Shown here one piece after another: positions 25,316-37,417 of a stretch of 64,000 nt of DNA (positions are counted from its first letter, which is position 1; every line of letters begins with the position of its first letter). Location of the stretch: NCBI GenBank assembly GCA_018267285.1, contig JAFDYU010000019.1, forward strand, positions 62,001 through 126,000, in the 5' to 3' direction. The position numbers and the translations under genes were made by a program. The notes below the pieces were generated by a model. The model was not told where the DNA came from. It ran no database searches and saw only the letters and a list, made by a program, of their open reading frames with translations. The DNA comes from Bacteroidota bacterium. GTDB taxonomy: Bacteria; Bacteroidota; Bacteroidia; Cytophagales; Cyclobacteriaceae.

Positions 25316-26650
25316 TTAACGTTTGGTTAATTTTTCGATGGCACGATTAGCACTATCAAAATAAAAAGACTCTACCGTCTTTTGAAAGTTATCGACAATT
25401 TCATCGTTACAAAGATTGCCAATGCTCCCTTCGTGGGTATGATGAATTTCCGTTGAATAGGTAAAGTTACCCTGTTCAATAGCAAGCCCTATTTTTTTGT
25501 ACGCATCGCGAAAAGGCATTCCACCCAGCACGAGCTTGTTCACTTCTTCCACGCTGAACAAAAATTTATATTTTTCGTCTTCAAGCAAGTGGTCTTTTAT
25601 TTTAATGTTAGACAACATCAGCGAAGCCATTTTTAAGCAACTTGTTAATGTGGCGAAGGCAGGAAAAATTTTTTCTTTCAATAATTGAAAATCGCGGTGG
25701 TAGCCCGAAGGTAAATTGCCGATGAGCAACGTAATTTCACCCGGCAGAGACTGAAGCGTATTGCATTTTGCACGGATCAGTTCAAATACATCAGGGTTTT
25801 TTTTGTGCGGCATAATGCTGCTGCCCGTAGTCAATTCATCGGGGAAAGAAATGAAATTGAAATTCTGATTTAAGAAAAGACAAACATCCATCGAAAGTTT
25901 GGACAGCGTGGCGGCCACATTCGCGATTGCCTGCGCAACTATTTTTTCTGTTTTTCCTCTGCCCATCTGCGCATAAACCACATTGTAGTTCAAGTCTTCA
26001 AAGCCGAGCAGCTCGGTGGTCATTTTGCGGTTGATGGGGAAAGAAGACCCATAGCCTGCTGCTGAGCCAAGTGGATTTTTGTTTACCACACGATAGGCCG
26101 CCTGAAGGGTTATCAAATCATCGGCCAGGCTTTCGGCATACGCGCCAAACCACAGACCAAACGAAGAGGGCATGGCAAGCTGCAAATGGGTATAGCCGGG
26201 CAGAAGCTTCTCTTTGTTTTCGTTGCTTTTTAAAATCAGCAGATCAAAAAACGATTTTATGGCAGAGGTGAGATTTTGAATTTCATGGCGAAGGAATAGT
26301 TTGATATCCACCAGCACCTGATCGTTCCGGCTTCGGCCACTGTGTATTTTTTTTCCGGTGTCGCCAAGTTTTCGGGTCAGCAGCAATTCCACCTGCGAGT
26401 GAATGTCTTCCACTCCATCCTCGATTTTAAAATTTCCGGATTCGATTTCCCGATAAATGTTTTTCAGCTCGGTACGTAAAACAGTGAAGTCCTCTTGGCT
26501 CATTAGGTTGATGGAGCTAAGCATTTGAATGTGCGCCAGCGAACCGAGTACATCGAAGCGTGCGAGGTGCAAATCCATTTCGAGATCGTTGCCCACCGTA
26601 AACTCACTAACCTCTGCCGAGGCGTCTTTGTTTTTTTGCCAGAGTTTCAT
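25316..26650 (-). CDS. argH: Argininosuccinate lyase
   Basis: A 444-residue member of the fumarase/aspartase superfamily that splits argininosuccinate to arginine and fumarate, the last step of the pathway. The superfamily signature is visible as GSSIMPHKKNPDVFELIRAK, with HSGRSRNDQV near residue 105 and the catalytic His region GYTHLQLAMPSSFG. It is the last gene of the minus-strand arginine operon and overlaps the preceding deacylase gene by 4 bases (ATGA). Confidence 0.95.
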   Translation of the reverse strand: MKLWQKNKDASAEVSEFTVGNDLEMDLHLARFDVLGSLAHIQMLSSINLMSQEDFTVLRTELKNIYREIESGNFKIEDGVEDIHSQVELLLTRKLGDTGKKIHSGRSRNDQVLVDIKLFLRHEIQNLTSAIKSFFDLLILKSNENKEKLLPGYTHLQLAMPSSFGLWFGAYAESLADDLITLQAAYRVVNKNPLGSAAGYGSSFPINRKMTTELLGFEDLNYNVVYAQMGRGKTEKIVAQAIANVAATLSKLSMDVCLFLNQNFNFISFPDELTTGSSIMPHKKNPDVFELIRAKCNTLQSLPGEITLLIGNLPSGYHRDFQLLKEKIFPAFATLTSCLKMASLMLSNIKIKDHLLEDEKYKFLFSVEEVNKLVLGGMPFRDAYKKIGLAIEQGNFTYSTEIHHTHEGSIGNLCNDEIVDNFQKTVESFYFDSANRAIEKLTKR

Positions 26651-27702
26651 AAACCTTCAATCAAGCGAATATACAATTCAATTCCCTTTTCAATTTCGCT
26701 GATGAAAATAAATTCATCTGCGCTGTGCGAGCGGGCCGAATCGCCCGGACCTATTTTTACCGAGGGCACCGGTATCAAGGCCTGATCGGAAGTGGTGGGC
26801 GAGCCGTACTGAGGCAGTGCTAATTTTTTTCCGGCCTTTACAAGCGGATGGCTTGCTTCGATGCCCGATGGACGAAGCCGCAGCGAACGCGGTGTTACTT
26901 CGCATTTCACGTTTTGCTTTACTTCGCTAAGCACGTCTTCGAGCGAATACGCATCGGTTACCCGGCAGTCAACCGTAAATTTGCATTCGGGAGGAACCTG
27001 GTTGTGTGCTTGCCCGGCATGAACTACAGTTACATTCATTTTCGTTCTCCCCAATACGGGAGACACTTTGGAAAATTGATGAGAACGGAACCATTCCATA
27101 TCGCGCATTGCCTCGTAGATGGCGTTCACCCCTTCTTCGCGCGCTGCGTGGCCGGCCTTTCCGCTGGCCACACAATCGAGAACCAATAATCCTTTTTCGG
27201 CAACAGCCATTTCCATTTTTGTAGGCTCTCCAACAATGGCACAATCAATTTTTGGAAGATCGTTCCAGATCAACTCAATTCCGCCTGTACCAGAAATTTC
27301 TTCTTCGGCTGTGGCAGCCACGATGATATTGTAATTGAGATTTTGTTTTTCGTAAAAATAAAAATAGGTGAGGAGTAGGGCCACCAACGGGCCACCCGCA
27401 TCGTTGCTTCCGAGCCCGAATAATTTTCCATCGATAATATCTGCGGAATAGGGATCGCGCGTATAGGCCGGATTTGGCCGCACGGTGTCGTGATGCGAAT
27501 TTAAAAGAAGCGTTGGCTTTGCCGGATTAAAAAATTTATTTATAGACCACACATTGTTGCCTTTGCGCTTACTTTCCATGCCGTGGTGTTTGAAGAAAAT
27601 TTCTAACAACGCGGCTGTCTTATCTTCTTCTTTGCTGAAAGAAGGAATGGTTATGAGTTGCTGAAGCAATTCAATGGCTATATGGCCGAGGTGCTCTTTC
27701 AT
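26647..27702 (-). CDS. argE: M20 family deacylase of the arginine pathway (ArgE-type)
   Basis: A 351-residue co-catalytic zinc hydrolase. Metal ligands are visible in LNSHHDTVRPN, GSNDAGGPLVAL, ATAEEEISGTGG (catalytic and ligand Glu) and VGEPTKMEMAVAEKGLL. It should remove the N-acyl group from the citrulline or ornithine intermediate. Since the carbamoyltransferase here is of the N-acylornithine type, the likely substrate is N-acyl- (probably succinyl-) citrulline rather than acetylornithine. It overlaps argB and argH by 4 bases each. Confidence 0.85.
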   Translation of the reverse strand: MKEHLGHIAIELLQQLITIPSFSKEEDKTAALLEIFFKHHGMESKRKGNNVWSINKFFNPAKPTLLLNSHHDTVRPNPAYTRDPYSADIIDGKLFGLGSNDAGGPLVALLLTYFYFYEKQNLNYNIIVAATAEEEISGTGGIELIWNDLPKIDCAIVGEPTKMEMAVAEKGLLVLDCVASGKAGHAAREEGVNAIYEAMRDMEWFRSHQFSKVSPVLGRTKMNVTVVHAGQAHNQVPPECKFTVDCRVTDAYSLEDVLSEVKQNVKCEVTPRSLRLRPSGIEASHPLVKAGKKLALPQYGSPTTSDQALIPVPSVKIGPGDSARSHSADEFIFISEIEKGIELYIRLIEGL

Positions 27703-28490
27703 TGAAGTGTGATTAAAGTGCCTTGAGTGGTATAGCCTGTGTTGGTGAGCAGGTGTGTATGGCTGCCAATCAACACTTCTTTAACCCCAGAGCGGATGGC
27801 GCTGAACGCATTTTCCAACTTGGGCAGAATTCCGTCATGCAATGCGCCTTCGCTCAAAAGTTTATTGTACAGGGCCTGGTTCAGGTTGGTGATGACGGAG
27901 TTCTCATCGGATATATTTCTTAGCACACCCGGTTTTTCAAAACAGAAAATTAAGCGGGTATCGAAGTGCTTGCTCAGGGCGATGGCGAGCACCGATGCAA
28001 TGGTATCGGCATTGGTGTTGAGCATTTCGCCCTGCGCATGTGTAAGCGGTGCAAAAACAGGAACTACATTTTGTTTTAAAAGAAAATAAAGGAACGATGA
28101 ATTGATATTTTCGGGTGCGATGTCGCCCACAAACCCATAATCAATTTTGCCCACTTCTCTTTTTACGGCTTTAATGAGATTGCCATCGGCACCAGTCACT
28201 CCAATGGCATTGCAGTGCAAGAATTGTAAGTGCGCGGTAATCTGCTTGTTGATGAGCCCGCCATAAACCATGGTTACGAGGTCTCGAGTTGGCTTATCGG
28301 TTATCCTGCGCCCATCAACATATTTCGATTCGATGCCGAGTTTATCTCCGATAGCCGTAGCGATTTTGCCACCGCCATGAATTAATATTTTTGGAGATTG
28401 GATGGAGGCAAAATCGTTTAGGAATTTCCCCAACGACTTTTCATCGTCCAACACATTGCCGCCAATTTTTATGATGTACAGTTTATTCAT
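27699..28490 (-). CDS. argB: N-acetyl/N-succinylglutamate kinase
   Basis: A 263-residue amino acid kinase. It phosphorylates the gamma-carboxyl of N-acylglutamate. Family marks are IKIGGNVLDDEK at the N-terminus, LIHGGGKIATAIG with the glycine-rich loop, VDGRRITDKPT, and the C-terminal TNADTIASVLA. No N-terminal arginine-sensing helix is present, so direct arginine feedback is not obvious. It lies in the middle of the arg operon. Confidence 0.92.
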   Translation of the reverse strand: MNKLYIIKIGGNVLDDEKSLGKFLNDFASIQSPKILIHGGGKIATAIGDKLGIESKYVDGRRITDKPTRDLVTMVYGGLINKQITAHLQFLHCNAIGVTGADGNLIKAVKREVGKIDYGFVGDIAPENINSSFLYFLLKQNVVPVFAPLTHAQGEMLNTNADTIASVLAIALSKHFDTRLIFCFEKPGVLRNISDENSVITNLNQALYNKLLSEGALHDGILPKLENAFSAIRSGVKEVLIGSHTHLLTNTGYTTQGTLITLQ

Positions 28491-28513
28491 TACGCTTGAT
28501 AACTAAGATTATT

Positions 28514-29470
28514 TTACTTCAACTCTTTTATTATTTCTTGCAAAACCGATTGAGCTGCCCACACCCGGTTGCCGGCTTGCTGTGTAACTAAACTTTGCGC
28601 ACCATCGAGCACTTCATTGCTTAGTTCGATATTTCTTCGCACGGGCAGACAGTGCATTATTTTTGCCTTTCTGGTTTCTTCTAATTTTGTTTGGGTCAAC
28701 ATCCAGTTCGGATCGCTGGTGTAAACTTTTCCGTAATCGTGGTAAGCACTCCAGTTTTTTACATACACAAAATCCGCATCTTTTAGTGCTTCTTTTTGAT
28801 CGTATAAAATAGCAGCACCATCGGTAAATTGTTTGTCGAGTTCATAATTCTCGGGATGTGTAATTACAAACTCGGCCTGCCCCCAGGCATTGATCCATTG
28901 GGCAAAGCTGTTGGCCACACATTGAGGCAATGCTTTAACGTGCGGTGCCCAGGTTAAAACTATTTTTGGTTTTCTTTTTTCCAGAAATGTTTCGGTGATG
29001 GTAATGAGGTCGGCTAGACTTTGTAGCGGATGAAGCGTAGCGCTTTCGAGGCTCACCACGGGCAGCCCGGAATATTTGATAAACTGCTGAAGGAAAAACT
29101 CACAGTAATCTTTGGCTTTGTCGTGCAGAGAAGGGAACGTGCGGATGCCAAGTATATCAAAATATTTTCCGAGCACGGGTGCAGCGTCTTTCACGTGCTC
29201 CACTGAAGTGCCGCTCATTATTACTTCCTCTTCAAACTCAAGAGCCCACCCTTCGCTACCCACGTTAAAGACGATTACTTCCATACCCAGATTTTTTGCA
29301 GCGAGTTGCGTGCTGATGCGCGTGCGCAAGCTTGGATTTAAAAAAAGTAAGCCCATCGTTTTATTTGCCCCTAGATGTTTGTCTTTAAATGGGTTTGCTT
29401 TGTAGGCCAACGCTTTTTCTATCAAGTCCGGGATGGAAGGAACATCAAATACAGAAGTAAATTTTTTCAT
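28514..29470 (-). CDS. argF': N-acylornithine (probably N-succinylornithine) carbamoyltransferase
   Basis: A 318-residue member of the aspartate/ornithine carbamoyltransferase superfamily. The carbamoyl-phosphate loop is FLNPSLRTRIST rather than the STRTR of ordinary ornithine enzymes, as in the acetyl/succinylornithine branch. HPLQSLADL and HCLPVRRN are also present. The residue before the conserved Glu-His (TSVEHV) is Val90. From memory of the published comparison, this position is Glu92 in the Xanthomonas acetylornithine enzyme and Pro90 in the Bacteroides succinylornithine enzyme, and small or hydrophobic residues favour succinyl. ATG at 29470 overlaps argD by 4 bases. Confidence 0.85.
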   Translation of the reverse strand: MKKFTSVFDVPSIPDLIEKALAYKANPFKDKHLGANKTMGLLFLNPSLRTRISTQLAAKNLGMEVIVFNVGSEGWALEFEEEVIMSGTSVEHVKDAAPVLGKYFDILGIRTFPSLHDKAKDYCEFFLQQFIKYSGLPVVSLESATLHPLQSLADLITITETFLEKRKPKIVLTWAPHVKALPQCVANSFAQWINAWGQAEFVITHPENYELDKQFTDGAAILYDQKEALKDADFVYVKNWSAYHDYGKVYTSDPNWMLTQTKLEETRKAKIMHCLPVRRNIELSNEVLDGAQSLVTQQAGNRVWAAQSVLQEIIKELK

Positions 29471-30603
29471 ACGTGTGCCCACTTATTAAATTCGACCGAT
29501 AACGCCTCGATTAGAATTTCGACTTCCGATTTTTTTAAAGCAAGCGAAGGTAGCAATCGCACGGTGTTTGGTTTGGCTTCACCGGTAAAAATATGGTGTT
29601 TGAAAAGCAAATCTTTGCGTAAAGAAGTTTGCGACTCGGGCAAATCGAAACCGATCATCAGCCCTGTGCCGCGCACATCTTTTACCATTTCAAATTTTTT
29701 CAATTCTGTTTTGCAAAAACTTCCTACAACAGATGCATTGGTCATCAGGTCTTCCTGTTCGATCACCTCCAGTACGGCAAGCGCTACCGCGCAAGCCAGA
29801 TAATTTCCGCCAAAAGTAGTGCCGAGCATTCCGCTCCAGGGTTTTATTGCCGGGTGGATCAGCACTCCGCCAATCGGGAAACCATTGCCCATGCCTTTGG
29901 CTGTTGTAATTAAATCGGGCTTTATGGCAGAATGCTGATGGGCGAAAAACTTGCCCGAACGTCCGTAGCCCGATTGTATCTCATCGAGGATTAACAGTGC
30001 GCCAACTTGTTGGCATTTTTTCGAAAGCAATTCCAGAAAATCATTCGTAGCAACATGGATTCCGCCTACGCCTTGAATTCCTTCCACAATTACCGCGGCC
30101 GCCTCCGAATCAATTTTTTCTTCTAATGGTTTTAACTCATTAAACGGCAAAAATTCTATTTGGTGGCCGGCATTAAAAGGGGCAACGATTTTTGGGTTAT
30201 CGGTGGCTGCCACCGCCCCCGATGTTCTTCCGTGAAACGCCCCGGTAAAGGCTATTATTTTTTTTCTGCCGGTTACAAAGGAAGCGAGCTTCAATGCGTT
30301 TTCATTGGCCTCCGCGCCTGAATTGCACAAGAACATCTGATAGTTGGTGTAGTCCGACACGTGCCCTATTTTTTCGGCAAGCTGCTCTTGCAACGAATTT
30401 TTTACACTGTTGGAGTAAAAAGAAATTTTATGGAGCTGATCTTTCAGCCGATCAACGTAATGCGGATGATTGTGCCCAATCGAAATCACCGCATGGCCAC
30501 CGTACAGATCTAAATATTTTTTTCCTTCCGTGTCCCACAGCCAGGAGCCTTCCGCTTTTACGGGCTCGATGGGGAAGAGCGGATAAACGTCAAAGAGTTT
30601 CAT
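29467..30603 (-). CDS. argD: N-acylornithine aminotransferase
   Basis: A 378-residue PLP-dependent class III aminotransferase that makes N-acylornithine from the semialdehyde. Marks are NSGAEANENALKLA, AFHGRTSGAVAAT, LLILDEIQSGYGRSGKFFAHQH and the PLP lysine in TTAKGMGNGFPIGG. Length is that of ArgD. It sits between proC (8-base gap) and argF' (4-base overlap) in the operon. Confidence 0.93.
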   Translation of the reverse strand: MKLFDVYPLFPIEPVKAEGSWLWDTEGKKYLDLYGGHAVISIGHNHPHYVDRLKDQLHKISFYSNSVKNSLQEQLAEKIGHVSDYTNYQMFLCNSGAEANENALKLASFVTGRKKIIAFTGAFHGRTSGAVAATDNPKIVAPFNAGHQIEFLPFNELKPLEEKIDSEAAAVIVEGIQGVGGIHVATNDFLELLSKKCQQVGALLILDEIQSGYGRSGKFFAHQHSAIKPDLITTAKGMGNGFPIGGVLIHPAIKPWSGMLGTTFGGNYLACAVALAVLEVIEQEDLMTNASVVGSFCKTELKKFEMVKDVRGTGLMIGFDLPESQTSLRKDLLFKHHIFTGEAKPNTVRLLPSLALKKSEVEILIEALSVEFNKWAHV

Positions 30604-30611
30604 TTCTGTCT

Positions 30612-31409
30612 TTACTTTTTTATTCCATTAATTTTTTCGAAAGAAGTCATGATCCCACGTATCAAAGCCGAACTTAGCCCTTGATGTTCCATTTCGTTTA
30701 GCCCCGCAATGGTGCAGCCTTCGGGGGTTGTTACTTTATCGATTTCAAGTTCGGGGTGCGATTCGCTGGAGAGCAAAAGAGTGGCCGCGCCTTGAGCCGT
30801 TTGTGCCGCCATCAGTTGGGCTTCTTCGGCATCGAAGCCCATTTGAATTCCGCCCTGAGTAGCAGCGCGCACATAGCGCATAAAAAAAGCAATACCGCTG
30901 GCCGCAAGCACGGTGGCTGCTTTCATCAGGCGTTCTTCAATAATCAGCGTTGTGCCCAGGCCGTCAAAAAGTCTTTTTACATCAGCCAGTTGTTTAGCAC
31001 TCGCGTCTTTTGAGCAGAGGCACGTCATCGATTGACCTATTGCAATCGCTGTGTTGGGCATGGCACGGATGATTGCGGTTTTCTTTTTCAGGTACGATGA
31101 AATTTCTTCGGTCGAAATTCCGGTGATGGTAGAAACCAAGACTTGCTTGCGGTGAACAGAAGAACCAACCTCTGACAAGACCGATGCAAGTTGCTTGGGC
31201 TGCACACAAAGAATAACCAATGAAGCGTTTTTTACTGCTTCGTTATTGTTGTTGTTCATTCGAAACCCTTCTTTCTTCAAATGGTTTATCTTCGAAAGAT
31301 TTCTGCGGGTGATTGTAATGTCTGTGGCTTTGGCAAGTTTAGATTTTACGAGGCCTAATGCTATGGCACTGCCCAGATTGCCGCCACCGATAATGGTAAT
31401 TTTTTTCAC
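30612..31409 (-). CDS. proC: Pyrroline-5-carboxylate reductase
   Basis: A 265-residue reductase that makes proline from pyrroline-5-carboxylate. The N-terminal nucleotide-binding motif is ITIIGGGNLGSAIALGL. The family signature is in the C-terminal dimer domain (residues around PEGCTIAGLNEME). Its place inside the arginine operon links the two glutamate-derived pathways; the semialdehyde or ornithine level may be shared. The spacing to argC is 1 base and to argD 8 bases, so it is certainly in the same transcript. Confidence 0.93.
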   Translation of the reverse strand: MKKITIIGGGNLGSAIALGLVKSKLAKATDITITRRNLSKINHLKKEGFRMNNNNNEAVKNASLVILCVQPKQLASVLSEVGSSVHRKQVLVSTITGISTEEISSYLKKKTAIIRAMPNTAIAIGQSMTCLCSKDASAKQLADVKRLFDGLGTTLIIEERLMKAATVLAASGIAFFMRYVRAATQGGIQMGFDAEEAQLMAAQTAQGAATLLLSSESHPELEIDKVTTPEGCTIAGLNEMEHQGLSSALIRGIMTSFEKINGIKK

Positions 31410-31410
31410 T

Positions 31411-32388
31411 TTAAAAACTTGTCGATTTTAATTTTAGTCCTGTTGTTTCTTCAAGGCCAAACATCAAATTCATATTTTGAACCGCTTGCCCGCTGGCGCC
31501 TTTCAATAAATTATCAAGGGCCGTGTGCACCACCAGTTTGTTGCCTTCTTTTTCAAGATGCACCAGACATTTGTTGGTGTTTACTACTTGTTTGAGATCA
31601 ATCGTAGAATCGGCCACGTGCGTAAAAGGATGTGTTGAATAGAAATCGCTATAGAGTTGGTTCAACTCCGAAAGCGATTTTTCCGATTCAACGATTGAAC
31701 TCACAAAAATGCCCCGTGTAAAATCTCCGCGCCACGGAATAAAATTTACATCCGATTGGTAATTTGGCTGAAGCGATTTCAAGGTTTGACTTATTTCGCT
31801 TAGGTGCTGATGCTTCAAAGTTTTGTATGCAGAGATGTTGTTGGCACGCCATGAAAAGTGCGTAGTGTCTTGCAGTTTCTGCCCCGCACCAGTTGAGCCG
31901 GTAATGCCGGTTGCATAGACTTCGCCCAGTAGGCCGGCCTTAGCAAGTGGCAATAAGCCTAATTGAATGGTTGTGGCAAAGCAGCCCGGGTTGGCGATGT
32001 TGTCGGCCATTTTAATTTTATCGCGCTGAAGTTCGGGTAGGCCATAAACAAAATTTCTTCCGGTTATCGAATCACCTAAACGAAAATCATTTCCAAGGTC
32101 GATAATCTTCGTTGTTGAGCGAAAAGTATTTTCTGTTAAAAATTTTTTACTCTCCCCATGGCTCATGCAGAGGAAGACCACATCAACCTCTTTATCGAAT
32201 GAAGAGGTGAATTTCAGTACTGTATCGCCTTGCAAGTCGGTGTGGACTTCGTGTAGAAATTTTCCTTCCTGGCTTCTGCTTTGTACAAAAGTTAATTCAA
32301 CGTTGGGGTGATGCAACAGCAAACGAACCGTTTCGCCACCGGTATAACCGGCACCGCCAATAATCCCTGCTCTGATTTTGTTTGCCAT
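31411..32388 (-). CDS. argC: N-acyl-gamma-glutamyl-phosphate reductase
   Basis: A 325-residue NADPH-dependent reductase. GIIGGAGYTGGETVRLL is the nucleotide-binding start, and the catalytic Cys lies in NPGCFATTIQLGLLPL near residue 133. GAGQKLQDTTHFSWR and HTALDNLLKGASGQAVQNMN are further ArgC marks. It converts the acyl phosphate to the semialdehyde used by ArgD. It is the third gene of the operon. Confidence 0.94.
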   Translation of the reverse strand: MANKIRAGIIGGAGYTGGETVRLLLHHPNVELTFVQSRSQEGKFLHEVHTDLQGDTVLKFTSSFDKEVDVVFLCMSHGESKKFLTENTFRSTTKIIDLGNDFRLGDSITGRNFVYGLPELQRDKIKMADNIANPGCFATTIQLGLLPLAKAGLLGEVYATGITGSTGAGQKLQDTTHFSWRANNISAYKTLKHQHLSEISQTLKSLQPNYQSDVNFIPWRGDFTRGIFVSSIVESEKSLSELNQLYSDFYSTHPFTHVADSTIDLKQVVNTNKCLVHLEKEGNKLVVHTALDNLLKGASGQAVQNMNLMFGLEETTGLKLKSTSF

Positions 32389-32402
32389 AATTTTTATGGA
32401 TG

Positions 32403-33611
32403 TTATTTTTTCTCTTCTACTACACTTTCCTTCACGCGGTGATAAATAGCCACTTGGTTTCCAAAAATTTTTGTAAAACCTTTTACGTCTTCCCCCGACC
32501 AGCCCAAATTCATTTCGCCATACTTACCAAACTTGGATGACATCAGATCAAACTTAGATTCGACACCATTGATTTGAAAGCGATAGGGGAAAAGCGTAAG
32601 CGAAACGTTGCCGGATACATTTTGCTGCGAATTGGTGAAGAATGATTCTACATCGCGCATCACCGGATCGAGGTATTGGCCTTCGTGCAACCAGTTTCCA
32701 TAAAATTGCGCAAGCTGATCTTTCCAGCTTAGTTGCCATTTGGTAAGCACATGTTTTTCTAATGCGTGATGGGCTTTAATAATCAATACAGGCGCAGCAG
32801 CTTCGAAACCAACGCGGCCTTTAATTCCGATAATCGTGTCGCCCACATGAATATCGCGGCCAATGCCGTAAGCCCCTGCTATTTCCTGAAGGTGCTGAAT
32901 TGCTTCAACCGGGTGCGAAAACTTTTTTCCATTTACCGAAATCAGCTCACCTTTTTCAAAACCAAGCAGCACATCTTCCCGGCTGTTTGTTTTGGTAACC
33001 TGAGTTGGCCATGCTTCTTCGGGCAACATGCCAAGCGAATTCAAAGTTTCTTTGCCGCCTACCGAAGTTCCCCAAATACCTTTGTTGATGGAGTATTTCG
33101 CTTTTTCAAAATTTATTTCAACCCCATTCTTTTTCAAGTATTCTATTTCGGCTTCGCGGCTTAATTTCTTATCACGTATAGGTGTGATGATTTCTACGCT
33201 GGGTGCAAGAACTTGAATGACCATGTCGAACCGAACCTGATCGTTGCCGGCCCCGGTGCTGCCGTGTGCCACCGCATCGGCCTTAATTTCGCGGGCGTAG
33301 TTGGCAGCCGCCAAGGCCTGCGACATGCGTTCGGCACTCACGCTGAGCGGGTACGTTGCATTTTTTAAGACGTTGCCAAAAACCAGGTACTTGATTACCT
33401 TATCGTAGTAGTTTTTTGTTTCGTCAATAGTCTTGTGCGACTTCGCACCGAGGCTCAGTGCCCGATGTTCAATTTCACCGATTTCTTTTTCTGAGAAGCC
33501 TCCGGTGTTTACGGTTAACGTGTGCACTTCATAACCCAGCTCTTGGGTGAGATATATGGCGCAGTAGGAGGTATCTAATCCTCCGCTAAAGGCCAGTACA
33601 ACTTTCTTCAT
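32403..33611 (-). CDS. argG: Argininosuccinate synthase
   Basis: A 402-residue ligase that joins citrulline and aspartate with ATP. The PP-loop AFSGGLDTSY is at residues 7-16, and AHGSTGAGNDQVRFD and KYSINKGIWGTSVGGKE follow. ATG at 33611 is chosen because it gives the standard MKKVVLAFSGG start; an upstream in-frame extension reaches back into the preceding gene and is not plausible. It lies 44 bases after the GNAT gene. Confidence 0.95.
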   Translation of the reverse strand: MKKVVLAFSGGLDTSYCAIYLTQELGYEVHTLTVNTGGFSEKEIGEIEHRALSLGAKSHKTIDETKNYYDKVIKYLVFGNVLKNATYPLSVSAERMSQALAAANYAREIKADAVAHGSTGAGNDQVRFDMVIQVLAPSVEIITPIRDKKLSREAEIEYLKKNGVEINFEKAKYSINKGIWGTSVGGKETLNSLGMLPEEAWPTQVTKTNSREDVLLGFEKGELISVNGKKFSHPVEAIQHLQEIAGAYGIGRDIHVGDTIIGIKGRVGFEAAAPVLIIKAHHALEKHVLTKWQLSWKDQLAQFYGNWLHEGQYLDPVMRDVESFFTNSQQNVSGNVSLTLFPYRFQINGVESKFDLMSSKFGKYGEMNLGWSGEDVKGFTKIFGNQVAIYHRVKESVVEEKK

Positions 33612-33655
33612 TGATAAAAATTGGAGTTTATATTTAGTTCGTGTAATAAAGGCGC

Positions 33656-34396
33656 CTACCAAAATAAAAATATATTGGACGTCCGTTTTTCTTCTCCCGC
33701 ATTTTTGCGCCAGCCCTTCAAGAGCATAAATTGTTTCAGGCGCATAAAGCGTTCGTAAATTTTGGAATAGACCGCAAACTCTTTTGCCTCGCGTGTAACG
33801 GGCATAGGATTAGCTTGAGCCAAGGCTGCTAAGTTGGTGGCTTCATCTTTAGCTTTTTCTACAGGATCGTACAACATGGCCGTGCACATACAGTTTTTAC
33901 GCTCCTTGCTTTTTAAAATTTCGTAGTTTACACAGCTCTGGCAGCCTTTCCAAAACTCTTCATCGGTGGTCAATTCAGAATACGTAACCGGTTCGTATCC
34001 GAGGTCTGAATTGATTTTCATTACCGCCAGCCCGGTTGTAAGTCCAAAAATTTTGGCATTGGGGTATTTTTTTCGCGACAGTTCGAATATTTTTTTCTTG
34101 ATGAGGGTGGCTACTCCGCTCTTGCGGAAAGGCGGTGAAACGATCAGCCCGCTGTTGGCTACAAATTTTTCATGCTCCCACGATTCGATGTAGCAAAAGC
34201 CTACCCACTCGCCCGATGGAGTTGTAGCCACTACGGCTTTGCCTTCCTCTATTTTCATTTTAACATATTCAGGCGAGCGCTTGGCAATGCCCGTACCGCG
34301 GGCTTTGGCCGACTCGGCCATTTCGTTGGTAATTGTTTCGGCAAAACGCACATCGGCAGCGGTGGCTTCCCGAACAATTAAATTACTATTGTTCAC
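33656..34396 (-). CDS. GNAT acyltransferase heading the arginine operon (candidate N-acylglutamate synthase)
   Basis: A 246-residue protein. A GNAT domain covers about residues 5-145, with the acyl-CoA-binding turn at PPFRKSGVATLIKKKI. It is followed by a cysteine cluster, Cys152-x2-Cys155-x13-Cys169-x-Cys171, that looks like a metal site, and a C-terminal helical region. No argA or argJ is seen in the operon, so this is the natural candidate for the first step, acylation of glutamate. The start is GTG at 34396; homologous N-termini (IVREATAADVRFAE) support it. Confidence 0.75.
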   Translation of the reverse strand: MNNSNLIVREATAADVRFAETITNEMAESAKARGTGIAKRSPEYVKMKIEEGKAVVATTPSGEWVGFCYIESWEHEKFVANSGLIVSPPFRKSGVATLIKKKIFELSRKKYPNAKIFGLTTGLAVMKINSDLGYEPVTYSELTTDEEFWKGCQSCVNYEILKSKERKNCMCTAMLYDPVEKAKDEATNLAALAQANPMPVTREAKEFAVYSKIYERFMRLKQFMLLKGWRKNAGEEKRTSNIFLFW

Positions 34397-34788: not shown

Positions 34789-35640
34789 ATGAATAAGAAA
34801 ATAGTAAGGGTAGGTAAAATTGAAGCCGGAGCTGATGAGCTTTTCCTGATCTCAGGCCCTTGTGTAATTGAAGAGGAAAAAATCATGATGCAAACGGCTG
34901 AGAAACTGAAAGAAGTTTCCGAACGCCTGAAAATCAACATTATCTACAAGTCGTCTTTTCAAAAGGACAACCGCAGCAGCCTGAAATATTACAATGGCCC
35001 CGGCCTTGACAAAGGCGTGAAGCTGCTGGCGAAAATCAAAGAACAGTTTGGGTTTCCGGTGCTCACGGATATTCATTACCCCGATCAGGCAGCCGCAGCC
35101 GCCCCGGTGGTAGATGTGCTCCAGATACCTGCTTATCTCTGTATGCAGACCTCGTTGATGGTAGCTGCTGCCAAGACAGGTCGTGTTGTTAATATCAAGC
35201 ATGGGCAGTTCCTTGCCCCTGACAACATGAAGCACCCTGTTACCAAATGCGTGGAGGCTGGTAATGATCAGATCATCCTTACCGAGCGCGGTTATACATT
35301 TGGTTACAACGACTTGATTGTTGACCCCCGTAGCTTTTATCACCTGAACAAAATTGGATACCCGGTGGTGTTTGATGTAACCCATGCTATCCGTAAGTAC
35401 GGAATCCCCAGTGCCGATGCCAAAGGTGGGGCAAGAGAATTTTTGCCCGTTCTGTCGCGTGCAGGCGTTGCTTCGGGCGTAGATGGGCTTTTCATTGAAA
35501 CTCACCCCGATCCCGAAAAAGCATTGTGCGATGCCGCCAGCCAGCTTTGTGTCTACGATCTCGAAGAGTTTATGAAACCCCTTCTCGAGCTTCACGCAGT
35601 TGAAGTTAAATACCGCCAAAGCGATGTGGTATTGAAATAA
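34789..35640 (+). CDS. kdsA: 3-deoxy-8-phosphooctulonate (Kdo-8-phosphate) synthase
   Basis: A 283-residue aldolase-type TIM barrel that condenses phosphoenolpyruvate with arabinose 5-phosphate. KdsA marks are ISGPCVIE, YKSSFQKDNRSS (PEP-binding lysines), VLTDIHYPDQ, KHGQFLAPDNM and DVTHAIRKYG. The segment ending FIETHPDPEKALCDA is typical. It is the first gene of a three-gene unit with the transaldolase-CBS fusion and the KdsC-like phosphatase. WaaA, encoded at 14883-16133, uses the final product. Confidence 0.95.
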   Translation: MNKKIVRVGKIEAGADELFLISGPCVIEEEKIMMQTAEKLKEVSERLKINIIYKSSFQKDNRSSLKYYNGPGLDKGVKLLAKIKEQFGFPVLTDIHYPDQAAAAAPVVDVLQIPAYLCMQTSLMVAAAKTGRVVNIKHGQFLAPDNMKHPVTKCVEAGNDQIILTERGYTFGYNDLIVDPRSFYHLNKIGYPVVFDVTHAIRKYGIPSADAKGGAREFLPVLSRAGVASGVDGLFIETHPDPEKALCDAASQLCVYDLEEFMKPLLELHAVEVKYRQSDVVLK

Positions 35641-35648
35641 CTCGTAGC

Positions 35649-35677
35649 TTGAAACTGAAAATCTAAGTTTACTTTTG
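35649..35677 (+). promoter_or_regulatory. Internal promoter before the transaldolase-CBS gene
   Basis: TTG at 35649-35651 and TACTTTTG at 35670-35677 are 18 bases apart in the 62-base gap after kdsA, 25 bases before the ATG at 35703. The fusion gene and phosphatase may therefore also be transcribed separately from kdsA. Confidence 0.45.
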
Positions 35678-35702
35678 TAAAACCTAAACAGCAAATTTTT
35701 AT

Positions 35703-36716
35703 ATGGAATTATACCTCGATTCTGCCGACCTCAAGGAAATTGAAGATGCCTTTCAACTGGGGTTTCTTACCGGTCTAACCACCACACCTACCTTTATGCA
35801 CCGGGGCGGTGTAACCGACATTGACGGGCTCATTGTAAAACTTTCGAAAATTGTACCCGTGCTTCAAATTGAAGCGTTGGGCGACACGGCAGCAGATGTG
35901 TTGAAGGAAGCGAAGCGTCAGCTGGATTTGGGATTAGATCCAAAGAAAACCGTTTTTAAAATCCCCGTTTCACTGGAAGGCGTTAAGGCCTGCAATCTTT
36001 TAAGAAGAGAAGGATTGTTGGTGAACGTTCACCTCATCTACACGTTGCAACAAGCTTACATGGCCATGCAAGCCGGGGCAAGTTACGTTTGCCCGTTGGT
36101 TGGCCGCCTGCAAGATCAGGGCCACGATGCCCTGGATTTGGTAGAGCAGTGCGTGTTTGCCGTTAATCATTATGGGTACGATACCAAAGTAATGTTTTCG
36201 TCCGTACGCAATGCCGAACATGTGCGCAACGCCCTTAACATTGGCGTGCATACCATCACCGTGCCGTGGAAGATTATGAAGGCATTGACGGAAAACAATT
36301 TCACCACGTTGGGCACACAGCAATTTATTGAGCACACACGCCTGATGACGGTGCGCGTAAAAGATGCCATTAACAAAGTTAACCCAATTGTTTCGGCCGA
36401 CACTTCCCTAACGGACGCCATTGTGAAAATGACCGAGTTCGGGTTTGGAGCGGTAACCGTAACCAACGGCAGCGGTCAGGTACTGGGCGTGTTTACCGAT
36501 GGCGACCTACGCAGAAAACTACAACAAGATGGCCGCAATGTGCTCGGGCAAAAAATGGGCGACTTTAAATACAATGCACCCGTTGCCGTAGATACTAATT
36601 CGTTGCTTACCGATGCGGCCGATATTTTTAAAAAATCGAAAGTAGATACCATTTTGGTGACCGAAAACGGAAAGCCTGCGGGCATGCTTGATATTCAGGA
36701 TCTGGAGGGAGACTAA
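35703..36716 (+). CDS. Transaldolase/F6P-aldolase-type barrel fused to a KdsD-like CBS pair
   Basis: A 337-residue two-part protein. Residues 1-215 are a TalC/FSA-type transaldolase: Asp6 in LYLDSAD, TGLTTTPT, Glu57, the Schiff-base Lys86 in FKIPVS, then GRLQDQGHDALDL with Arg135. Compared, from memory, with TalC, active-site positions differ: His110 where Thr is usual, Cys130 for Ser or Ala, Leu132 for the aromatic. Residues 228-337 are two CBS motifs; GVFTDGDLRR (262-271) matches the CBS signature of arabinose-5-phosphate isomerase KdsD. It sits between kdsA and a kdsC-like gene, where kdsD is expected. Inferred role: making or controlling arabinose 5-phosphate for Kdo. Confidence 0.85.
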   Translation: MELYLDSADLKEIEDAFQLGFLTGLTTTPTFMHRGGVTDIDGLIVKLSKIVPVLQIEALGDTAADVLKEAKRQLDLGLDPKKTVFKIPVSLEGVKACNLLRREGLLVNVHLIYTLQQAYMAMQAGASYVCPLVGRLQDQGHDALDLVEQCVFAVNHYGYDTKVMFSSVRNAEHVRNALNIGVHTITVPWKIMKALTENNFTTLGTQQFIEHTRLMTVRVKDAINKVNPIVSADTSLTDAIVKMTEFGFGAVTVTNGSGQVLGVFTDGDLRRKLQQDGRNVLGQKMGDFKYNAPVAVDTNSLLTDAADIFKKSKVDTILVTENGKPAGMLDIQDLEGD

Positions 36717-36721
36717 GCCTC

Positions 36722-37417
36722 ATGGACACTGAACTTATTTTTACAGAATTGGGCGGCAGATTTTGCCGCCCTTTTGCTGAATTCAAAGATCAACTCTCAA
36801 AAATCAAGGCTTATGTTTTTGATTGGGACGGGGTGTTCAACGATGGCGTAAAAACCGATCAGGGTGGAAGCCCTTTTAGCGAAGTAGATGCCATGGGCAC
36901 CAACATGCTTCGGTTTGGGCATTGGCTGAAGCACCGATCTCTCCCGACAGTAGCCGTAATTACGGGTGAAGAAAATCCTTCCGCCAGGTTTCTGGCTCAG
37001 CGCGAACACTATCATGCCGTTTATTTTAAATCGACCAATAAGTTGACGGCTTTCGATCATTTCTTAAAAACGAATAACCTTACTGCACACGAGGTTGCTT
37101 TTGTTTATGACGATGTACTGGATCTGGGTGTTGCAGAAAAATGCGGCCTGCGTTTTTTGGTAAAACACCGCGCTGCACCCTTATTTCAAAACTACGCCAC
37201 TAAAAATAGGGCAACGGATTACATCACCTCTTCCGACAACCATGCTGTGCGCGAAGTTTGCGAATTGATTTTAGGCACGAATGGAATTTTTAACGAAGCT
37301 ATTCACAAGAGAAGTCATTTTGATGAAGCGTATCAAAAATATCTTAACGAACGAAATCAGGTTGCCACAAAATCTTTTTTATTACAGGATGGGATCGTAA
37401 CCGAGAAGGTTTATTGA
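36722..37417 (+). CDS. KdsC-like HAD phosphatase
   Basis: A 231-residue HAD hydrolase. Nucleophile Asp34 and acid/base Asp36 lie in FDWDGVFNDG, the KdsC pattern. VYDDVLDLGVAEKCGL is the last acidic motif, and HAVREVCELIL matches the C-terminal helix of KdsC. It probably removes phosphate from Kdo-8-phosphate. It is longer than usual: about 30 extra residues before motif I and about 45 after the last motif. It starts 5 bases after the fusion gene. Its end overlaps a convergent permease gene by 7 bases. Confidence 0.78.
   Translation: MDTELIFTELGGRFCRPFAEFKDQLSKIKAYVFDWDGVFNDGVKTDQGGSPFSEVDAMGTNMLRFGHWLKHRSLPTVAVITGEENPSARFLAQREHYHAVYFKSTNKLTAFDHFLKTNNLTAHEVAFVYDDVLDLGVAEKCGLRFLVKHRAAPLFQNYATKNRATDYITSSDNHAVREVCELILGTNGIFNEAIHKRSHFDEAYQKYLNERNQVATKSFLLQDGIVTEKVY

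Follow-up and report, generated by a model that had tools for sequence, protein, structure and literature searches.

Comparative genomics points to a transaldolase-CBS fusion protein in place of the arabinose 5-phosphate isomerase KdsD in the Kdo pathway of many Bacteroidota

We analyzed a 64,000-nucleotide stretch of the genome of a Bacteroidota bacterium (GenBank assembly GCA_018267285.1, contig JAFDYU010000019.1, positions 62,001 to 126,000 of the forward strand; the whole stretch is referred to as the window), and describe here a gene whose product, a transaldolase barrel fused to a pair of CBS motifs, is a proposed source of arabinose 5-phosphate (A5P) for the synthesis of 3-deoxy-D-manno-octulosonate (Kdo). 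In most Gram-negative bacteria, Kdo connects lipid A with the remainder of the lipopolysaccharide; KdsD, a SIS-domain isomerase that is under feedback control by CMP-Kdo, is regarded as the entry point of its synthesis. The fusion gene (35703..36716, plus strand, 337 aa) is the middle one of three closely spaced plus-strand genes spanning 34789-37417. It is preceded by kdsA (34789..35640, plus strand), encoding a 3-deoxy-8-phosphooctulonate synthase that scores above the TIGR01362 cut-off (337 vs 314 bits) and that falls, in a tree of KdsA sequences, into a deep subclass that we name KdsA'. It is followed by a gene for a divergent, KdsC-like phosphatase of the HAD type (36722..37417, plus strand), probably a Kdo-8-phosphate phosphatase. 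A preliminary description of the locus had placed the fusion between kdsA and a kdsC-like phosphatase; the position stands, and for the identity of the phosphatase there is a weak KdsC match, with 61 bits against PRK09484 (cut-off 208) and 48 bits against TIGR01670 (cut-off 107). The phosphatase runs past the KdsC models on either side, and it is perhaps a member of an undescribed KdsC subclass.

The two-part architecture of the fusion, a TalC/FSA-type barrel carrying the Schiff-base lysine Lys86 and joined to a CBS pair, had been proposed in the preliminary description and is confirmed by Pfam and by the residue positions. Pfam TAL_FSA (PF00923) matches residues 3-202 (E 1.5e-33; 116.9 bits vs a cut-off of 27), within a barrel of approximately residues 1-212 (35703..36341, plus strand), and Pfam CBS (PF00571; E 1.5e-15) matches two stretches within a pair of approximately residues 219-334 (36342..36713, plus strand) in a protein whose translation also contains the motif GVFTDGDLRR. 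The same Pfam scan found no SIS domain in the protein. Against the more specific models, the fusion reaches 150.7 bits with the TalC equivalog TIGR00875, under the cut-off of 245.95, and 63.2 bits with the kpsF model TIGR00393, under the cut-off of 203.7 and with only the CBS part (residues 215-328) matched. An AlphaFold2 model built from a 21-member family alignment has a mean predicted local distance difference test (pLDDT) score of 86.5 and a predicted template modeling (pTM) score of 0.60, the latter making the relative placement of barrel and CBS domains uncertain, and in a Foldseek search with this model TalC-type transaldolases, including 3r8r and 3s0c, ranked best. As numerous genomes encode the complete two-domain protein, with 56-95% identity (excluding a diverged group at 37-41%, described below), the fusion is no chance product.

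The CBS pair most closely resembles that of A5P isomerases. The nearest solved sequence, both in a single-sequence search of the PDB (E 2.1e-13) and in a family-profile search (E 1.1e-20), was 4o9k, a CBS pair that belongs to an A5P isomerase; it was followed in the former search by an unrelated CBS protein, 9e6q, and in the latter by two further CBS matches that are also A5P isomerases. Moreover, among the NCBIfam families with CBS motifs, the pair scores highest with kpsF. These results make descent of the CBS pair from KdsD likely, and no firmer than that, because two short frames in the same genome that each contain a CBS pair (L006 and L007, at G000:C12 and G000:C24, 143 and 182 aa; G, L and f numbers are our handles for genomes, loci and families) reach 65 and 54 bits with the fusion CBS profile, within the 43 to 78 bits of KpsF CBS pairs. 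By analogy with KdsD, the CBS pair of the fusion probably senses the end product of the pathway.

To characterize the active site, we compared 119 distinct full-length fusions with 10 ordinary TalC sequences, hand-picked from the same order as the window genome. The fusion set was obtained from 150 sequences, of which 124 remained after removal of identical copies and 119 after removal of five diverged ones (fragments and stop-containing rows having been removed earlier), and it is biased toward close relatives, as the 80 named loci are the best 80 of at least 549 related stretches. Asp6, Thr28, Glu57, Lys86, Asn108, His110, Cys130, Leu132, Arg135, Ser167 and Arg169 are invariant in all 119 fusions. 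Seven of these positions (Asp6, Glu57, Lys86, Asn108, Arg135, Ser167 and Arg169) are identical in the ten ordinary TalC sequences, whereas positions 28, 110, 130 and 132 are Asn, Thr, Ser and Phe in 10/10 TalC sequences and Thr, His, Cys and Leu in 119/119 fusions, at a mean identity between the two groups of 34% (computed with 40 of the 119 fusions). The unusual residues His110, Cys130 and Leu132 of the preliminary description thus lie at the positions it had given, and are fixed. In E. coli FSA, Asn28 and Ala129 are located by the donor, and the catalytic water is held by Gln59, Thr109 and Tyr131 (PMC13259622). Since the changed positions map to these donor and water residues, the alignment indicates that the donor pocket and the catalytic-water site have been rebuilt in the fusion, with the Schiff-base lysine and the phosphate site kept.

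We then asked which genes for Kdo synthesis are present in the genome from which the window derives, a 97.7% complete assembly whose 25 contigs total 3.33 Mb. The preliminary description had named a normal KdsD at another place of the same genome as evidence against its proposal; none was found in this assembly: the search with the kpsF model gave nothing above the cut-off, and its top match was the CBS pair of the fusion itself. A search for SIS domains led to four places, namely two domains of one 612-aa frame, which is taken as GlmS, a MurQ and a GmhA. A hidden single-domain KdsD was considered and rejected, the 193-aa SIS protein being GmhA and the 266-aa one MurQ. KdsB is present above its cut-off. 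No KdsC above the cut-off was found in this genome by model search, leaving the HAD gene of the cluster as the best candidate; the only other KdsC match has 18.9 bits and lies inside a 679-aa frame. A separate locus (G000:C2:73515-74147) encodes an ordinary TalC. Each step to CMP-Kdo thus has a candidate gene in the window genome save the supply of A5P, and the fusion sits among these genes. In the complete chromosome of Chitinophagaceae LGM1, the SIS search likewise found no KdsD among its four matches, which comprise two domains of a 618-aa frame that is taken to be GlmS, one phosphoglucose/phosphomannose isomerase and one GmhA-like protein (204 bits vs a cut-off of 209).

The preliminary description had proposed mutual exclusion of the fusion and SIS-type KdsD among relatives as a test of replacement, and such exclusion is strongly borne out by two samples that share eighteen genomes and together comprise 506, of which 126 carry the fusion (five diverged ones counted). 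In an order-level sample of 148 genomes, with fusions called above 300 bits and KpsF above its cut-off, 55 genomes have the fusion, 71 have KpsF and 24 have neither; the two sources coincide in 2 genomes, G069 and the 7% contaminated G096. Among the 121 of these with KdsA, the fusion alone is found in 51, KpsF alone in 67, both in 2 and neither in a single genome (G133), where kdsA lies at a contig end. A class-level sample, made up of 376 genomes with a completeness of 90% or more and scored with E limits of 1e-60 for the fusion and 1e-35 for KpsF, gave 75 genomes with the fusion, 228 with KpsF (203 above the cut-off), 76 with neither and 3 with both, vs 45 expected under independence; the 75 include the diverged G193, G227, G255, G282 and G305, whose removal drops G282 from the three with both. 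When this sample is restricted to the 291 genomes with KdsA, 67 have the fusion only, 220 KpsF only, 2 both (G364 and G427) and 2 neither (G372 and G467). The 85 class genomes without KdsA include 6 with a fusion match, 5 of them of the diverged kind, and 6 with KpsF, G282 being in both sets. Fisher values for the exclusion are 2e-31 (376 class genomes), 6e-61 (291 with KdsA) and 8e-19 (148 order genomes), and assume independent genomes, which is untrue here, so that mixed families and the KdsA tree provide a better measure. Both states, fusion and KpsF, occur within 12 families (f1, f4, f5, f9, f11, f19, f20, f26, f32, f55, f57 and f71), implying that the switch between them occurred many times.

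The type of kdsA largely follows the A5P source. A tree of 59 KdsA rows is split by a long branch (length 1.23, support 100/100). One side holds 35 rows of fusion genomes along with 3 of KpsF genomes and 2 of genomes that have both sources; the other holds 15 rows of KpsF genomes together with second copies, 3 of them from genomes that have both sources and 1 from the fusion genome G286. Two kdsA types were found in four of the five KdsA-containing genomes that have both sources: G069, G096 and G427 each have one kdsA of either type, and Chryseolinea serpens, with the fusion and a full KpsF, has two kdsA genes of 387 and 336 bits, their types distinguished by score alone. The fifth is G364. 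In G069 the canonical kdsA and kpsF adjoin each other and an export ABC transporter of the Wzm/Wzt type (L062), and canonical kdsA and kpsF lie by similar transporter genes at L069 (G016). As this arrangement resembles a capsule or O-antigen locus, a second source of Kdo may supply a surface polysaccharide.

The most informative case is a natural swap within family f11. In G029 and G059, kdsA' (79-80% identical to that of the window) adjoins the HAD gene, joined in G029 by kdsB, and KpsF is encoded elsewhere; no fusion was found anywhere in these two genomes, where the transaldolase matches are only of barrel length. Their kdsA' clusters (support 99/89) with the kdsA' of G010, a genome in which the fusion is present and KpsF absent. 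That the KdsA'-phosphatase pair occurs with KpsF in one f11 genus and with the fusion in another argues that both deliver A5P.

The gene neighbourhood is also conserved beyond the window. A scan of 84,980 genomes returned at least 549 related stretches, the best 80 of which were examined as named loci; several of these stretches end at contig ends, which bears on the neighbour counts. Among these best 80, kdsA ends at most 400 bases upstream of the fusion in 44, the HAD gene starts at most 500 bases downstream in 55, and both neighbours are present in 36. kdsB lies in the examined stretch in 25/80, including Chitinophagaceae LGM1 (L139) and IBVUCB1 (L137), and in some named genomes kdsA, fusion, phosphatase and kdsB stand in a row. 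In some relatives (among L132-L189), kdsA and the fusion are separated by genes that, judged by eye, encode a four-helix protein, a secreted or outer-membrane-type protein (about 220 aa) or a PIN/antitoxin-like pair; a KDPG-aldolase-like gene, also assigned by eye, adjoins the fusion in one case (G054, L072).

Taken together, comparative genomics strongly supports the fusion as a replacement of KdsD, the reaction being inferred, and from the mutual exclusion and the f11 swap we infer that it supplies A5P to KdsA. We consider it probable that it does so by chemistry at Lys86. In the model that we propose, the Kdo pathway would have lost KdsD and gained a non-orthologous replacement, in which a Schiff-base transaldolase-fold barrel stands in place of the SIS isomerase domain; A5P would form via a Schiff base of Lys86 with C1 of the aldose, the CBS pair would be the probable control domain, and feedback on it by CMP-Kdo is a speculation that takes KdsD as its model. 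Of the preliminary proposal that the SIS domain had been swapped for an aldolase as a new A5P source, the replacement is supported by the mutual exclusion, and the aldol reaction and the descent and control role of the CBS pair are tentative.

Several observations weigh against this interpretation. Two class genomes (G372 and G467) carry KdsA with neither A5P source, G225 has an ordinary fusion with no KdsA match, and KpsF is found in 6 of the 85 KdsA-negative class genomes. The pairing of kdsA type and source is broken by G286 (fusion, both kdsA types, no KpsF), G253 (fusion, two KdsA matches, no KpsF), G120 (kdsA' with KpsF and no fusion, 4% contamination) and G364 (both sources with a single kdsA, 3% contamination). 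Furthermore, no recurring, fitting glycolaldehyde-producing neighbour was found when gap genes were clustered and the neighbours at the G loci were listed, an assessment made by eye on genes mostly not library-scanned. Finally, residues described as important in FSA (Asn28, Thr109 and Tyr131; PMC13259622) are changed in the fusion, such that ordinary FSA chemistry should not be assumed.

As for the reaction, A5P is fructose 6-phosphate minus the C1 hydroxymethyl group, with three matching stereocentres and the phosphate-bearing carbon four bonds from the Schiff carbon in both. An aldol addition of glycolaldehyde and glyceraldehyde 3-phosphate is the reaction that we rate most likely, at somewhat less than even chances. 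FSA enzymes are reported to form A5P from these two compounds (PMC6298115, PMC9947464); as an ordinary FSA with canonical residues already makes A5P, the four fixed changes suggest either that dihydroxyacetone is kept out or that another reaction is catalyzed. One such reaction, which we hold to be possible if doubtful, is a ribose-5-phosphate 2-epimerase, in which Lys86 would form an imine at C1, C2 would be deprotonated, or the C2-C3 bond opened and reclosed, with inversion, and His110 would be an added acid-base residue. It fits about as well as aldol addition, makes a free glycolaldehyde pool unnecessary, and would give a role to His110, which is fixed with the other three changes in 119/119 fusions. 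To our knowledge, no enzyme of this fold carries out this reaction, and no transaldolase-fold epimerase has been described. Related chemistry is on record: FSA already proceeds via an enamine next to the imine (PMC13259622), and TalB F178Y is said to yield ribose 5-phosphate besides A5P from glycolaldehyde and glyceraldehyde 3-phosphate (PMC9947464). The fuller form of this alternative, a transaldolase-fold pentose-5-phosphate 2-epimerase making A5P directly from ribose 5-phosphate via a C1 Schiff base, with a KdsD-derived CBS pair that senses CMP-Kdo and repeated two-way exchange with KdsD across Bacteroidota, is in our estimate likewise a tentative option, short of the aldol addition.

The remaining alternatives appear considerably less probable. 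An isomerase acting on ribulose 5-phosphate would substitute the function of KdsD directly, performing its reaction on another fold, and could draw on the additional active-site histidine, with Lys86, His110 and Glu57 acting like the Lys, His and Glu of triosephosphate isomerase; we judge it improbable, as the Schiff base at C2 of a ketose cannot yield an aldose and the chemistry is thus unlikely, Lys86 and Asp6 would need new roles despite their invariance in 119/119 fusions, and the phosphate lies one carbon nearer in ribulose 5-phosphate than in fructose 6-phosphate. It is still more improbable that the cluster makes another ulosonic acid and that the fusion feeds a different aldose phosphate to KdsA'. 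The divergence of both KdsA' and the phosphatase as subclasses would fit this, but KdsA' is above the cut-off for the KDO8P synthase family, KdsB is above its cut-off in the window genome with kdsB adjoining the cluster in some relatives, and the KdsA'-HAD pair coexists with KpsF, not the fusion, in G029 and G059. Least probable of all, in our view very much so, is an ordinary transaldolase or FSA adjoining kdsA by chance: the protein belongs to the same Pfam family and keeps Lys86, Asp6, Glu57 and the phosphate ligands, but the window genome has an ordinary TalC elsewhere, four active-site changes are fixed, exclusion with KpsF is near-perfect, and the neighbours are kdsA, the HAD gene and, in relatives, kdsB.

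A diverged group of relatives (37-41% identity) keeps the barrel and the CBS pair, with Lys86 replaced by Arg in four and Ser in one and most active-site residues lost. It is found in family f24 (L190:5413-6411 and L191-L194; genomes G305, G193, G255, G227 and G282), and no KdsA match was found in these five genomes. At L190 the gene is preceded by genes for a PafA-type phosphatase and an M61 peptidase, and similar genes precede it in all five loci. By sequence, these proteins look like non-catalytic sensors. In the window itself, an arginine biosynthesis cluster, assigned by eye, occupies 25316-33662 on the minus strand, with genes that we take to be argH, argB, a carbamoyltransferase of the acetyl- or succinylornithine kind, an aminotransferase, argC and argG.

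If the proposed role is correct, it would represent an undescribed route to an important building block of the cell envelope in many Bacteroidota that lack KdsD, and a new reaction or role for the transaldolase family. It would also mean that pathway reconstructions can overlook or mislabel the step by which Kdo synthesis begins in many members of the phylum, given the at least 549 related stretches and the 126 fusion-bearing genomes among the 506 sampled. The fusion could moreover provide a natural A5P-forming catalyst for synthetic glycolaldehyde pathways, where one of the options named is an A5P aldolase with very high affinity (PMC9947464).

In the open-access papers searched, we did not find a transaldolase-CBS fusion described as part of Kdo synthesis; the known systems each share some of its features. 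With KdsD/KpsF/GutQ (TIGR00393) the fusion has in common the type of CBS pair, with an almost identical motif, a place in the Kdo pathway and a complementary distribution, but it has no SIS domain and carries instead an unrelated barrel with a Schiff-base lysine. With TalC/FSA (PF00923, TIGR00875) it shares the fold, the barrel length and Asp6, Glu57, Lys86, Asn108, Arg135, Ser167 and Arg169, and differs from them in N28T, T110H, S130C and F132L, in the added CBS pair and in a TIGR00875 score below the cut-off. FsaA and TalB F178Y have the same fold and make A5P from glycolaldehyde and glyceraldehyde 3-phosphate (PMC6298115, PMC9947464); they serve engineered pathways, with no tie to Kdo synthesis and no CBS pair, whereas the fusion combines such a barrel with a KdsD-like CBS pair within a Kdo gene cluster.

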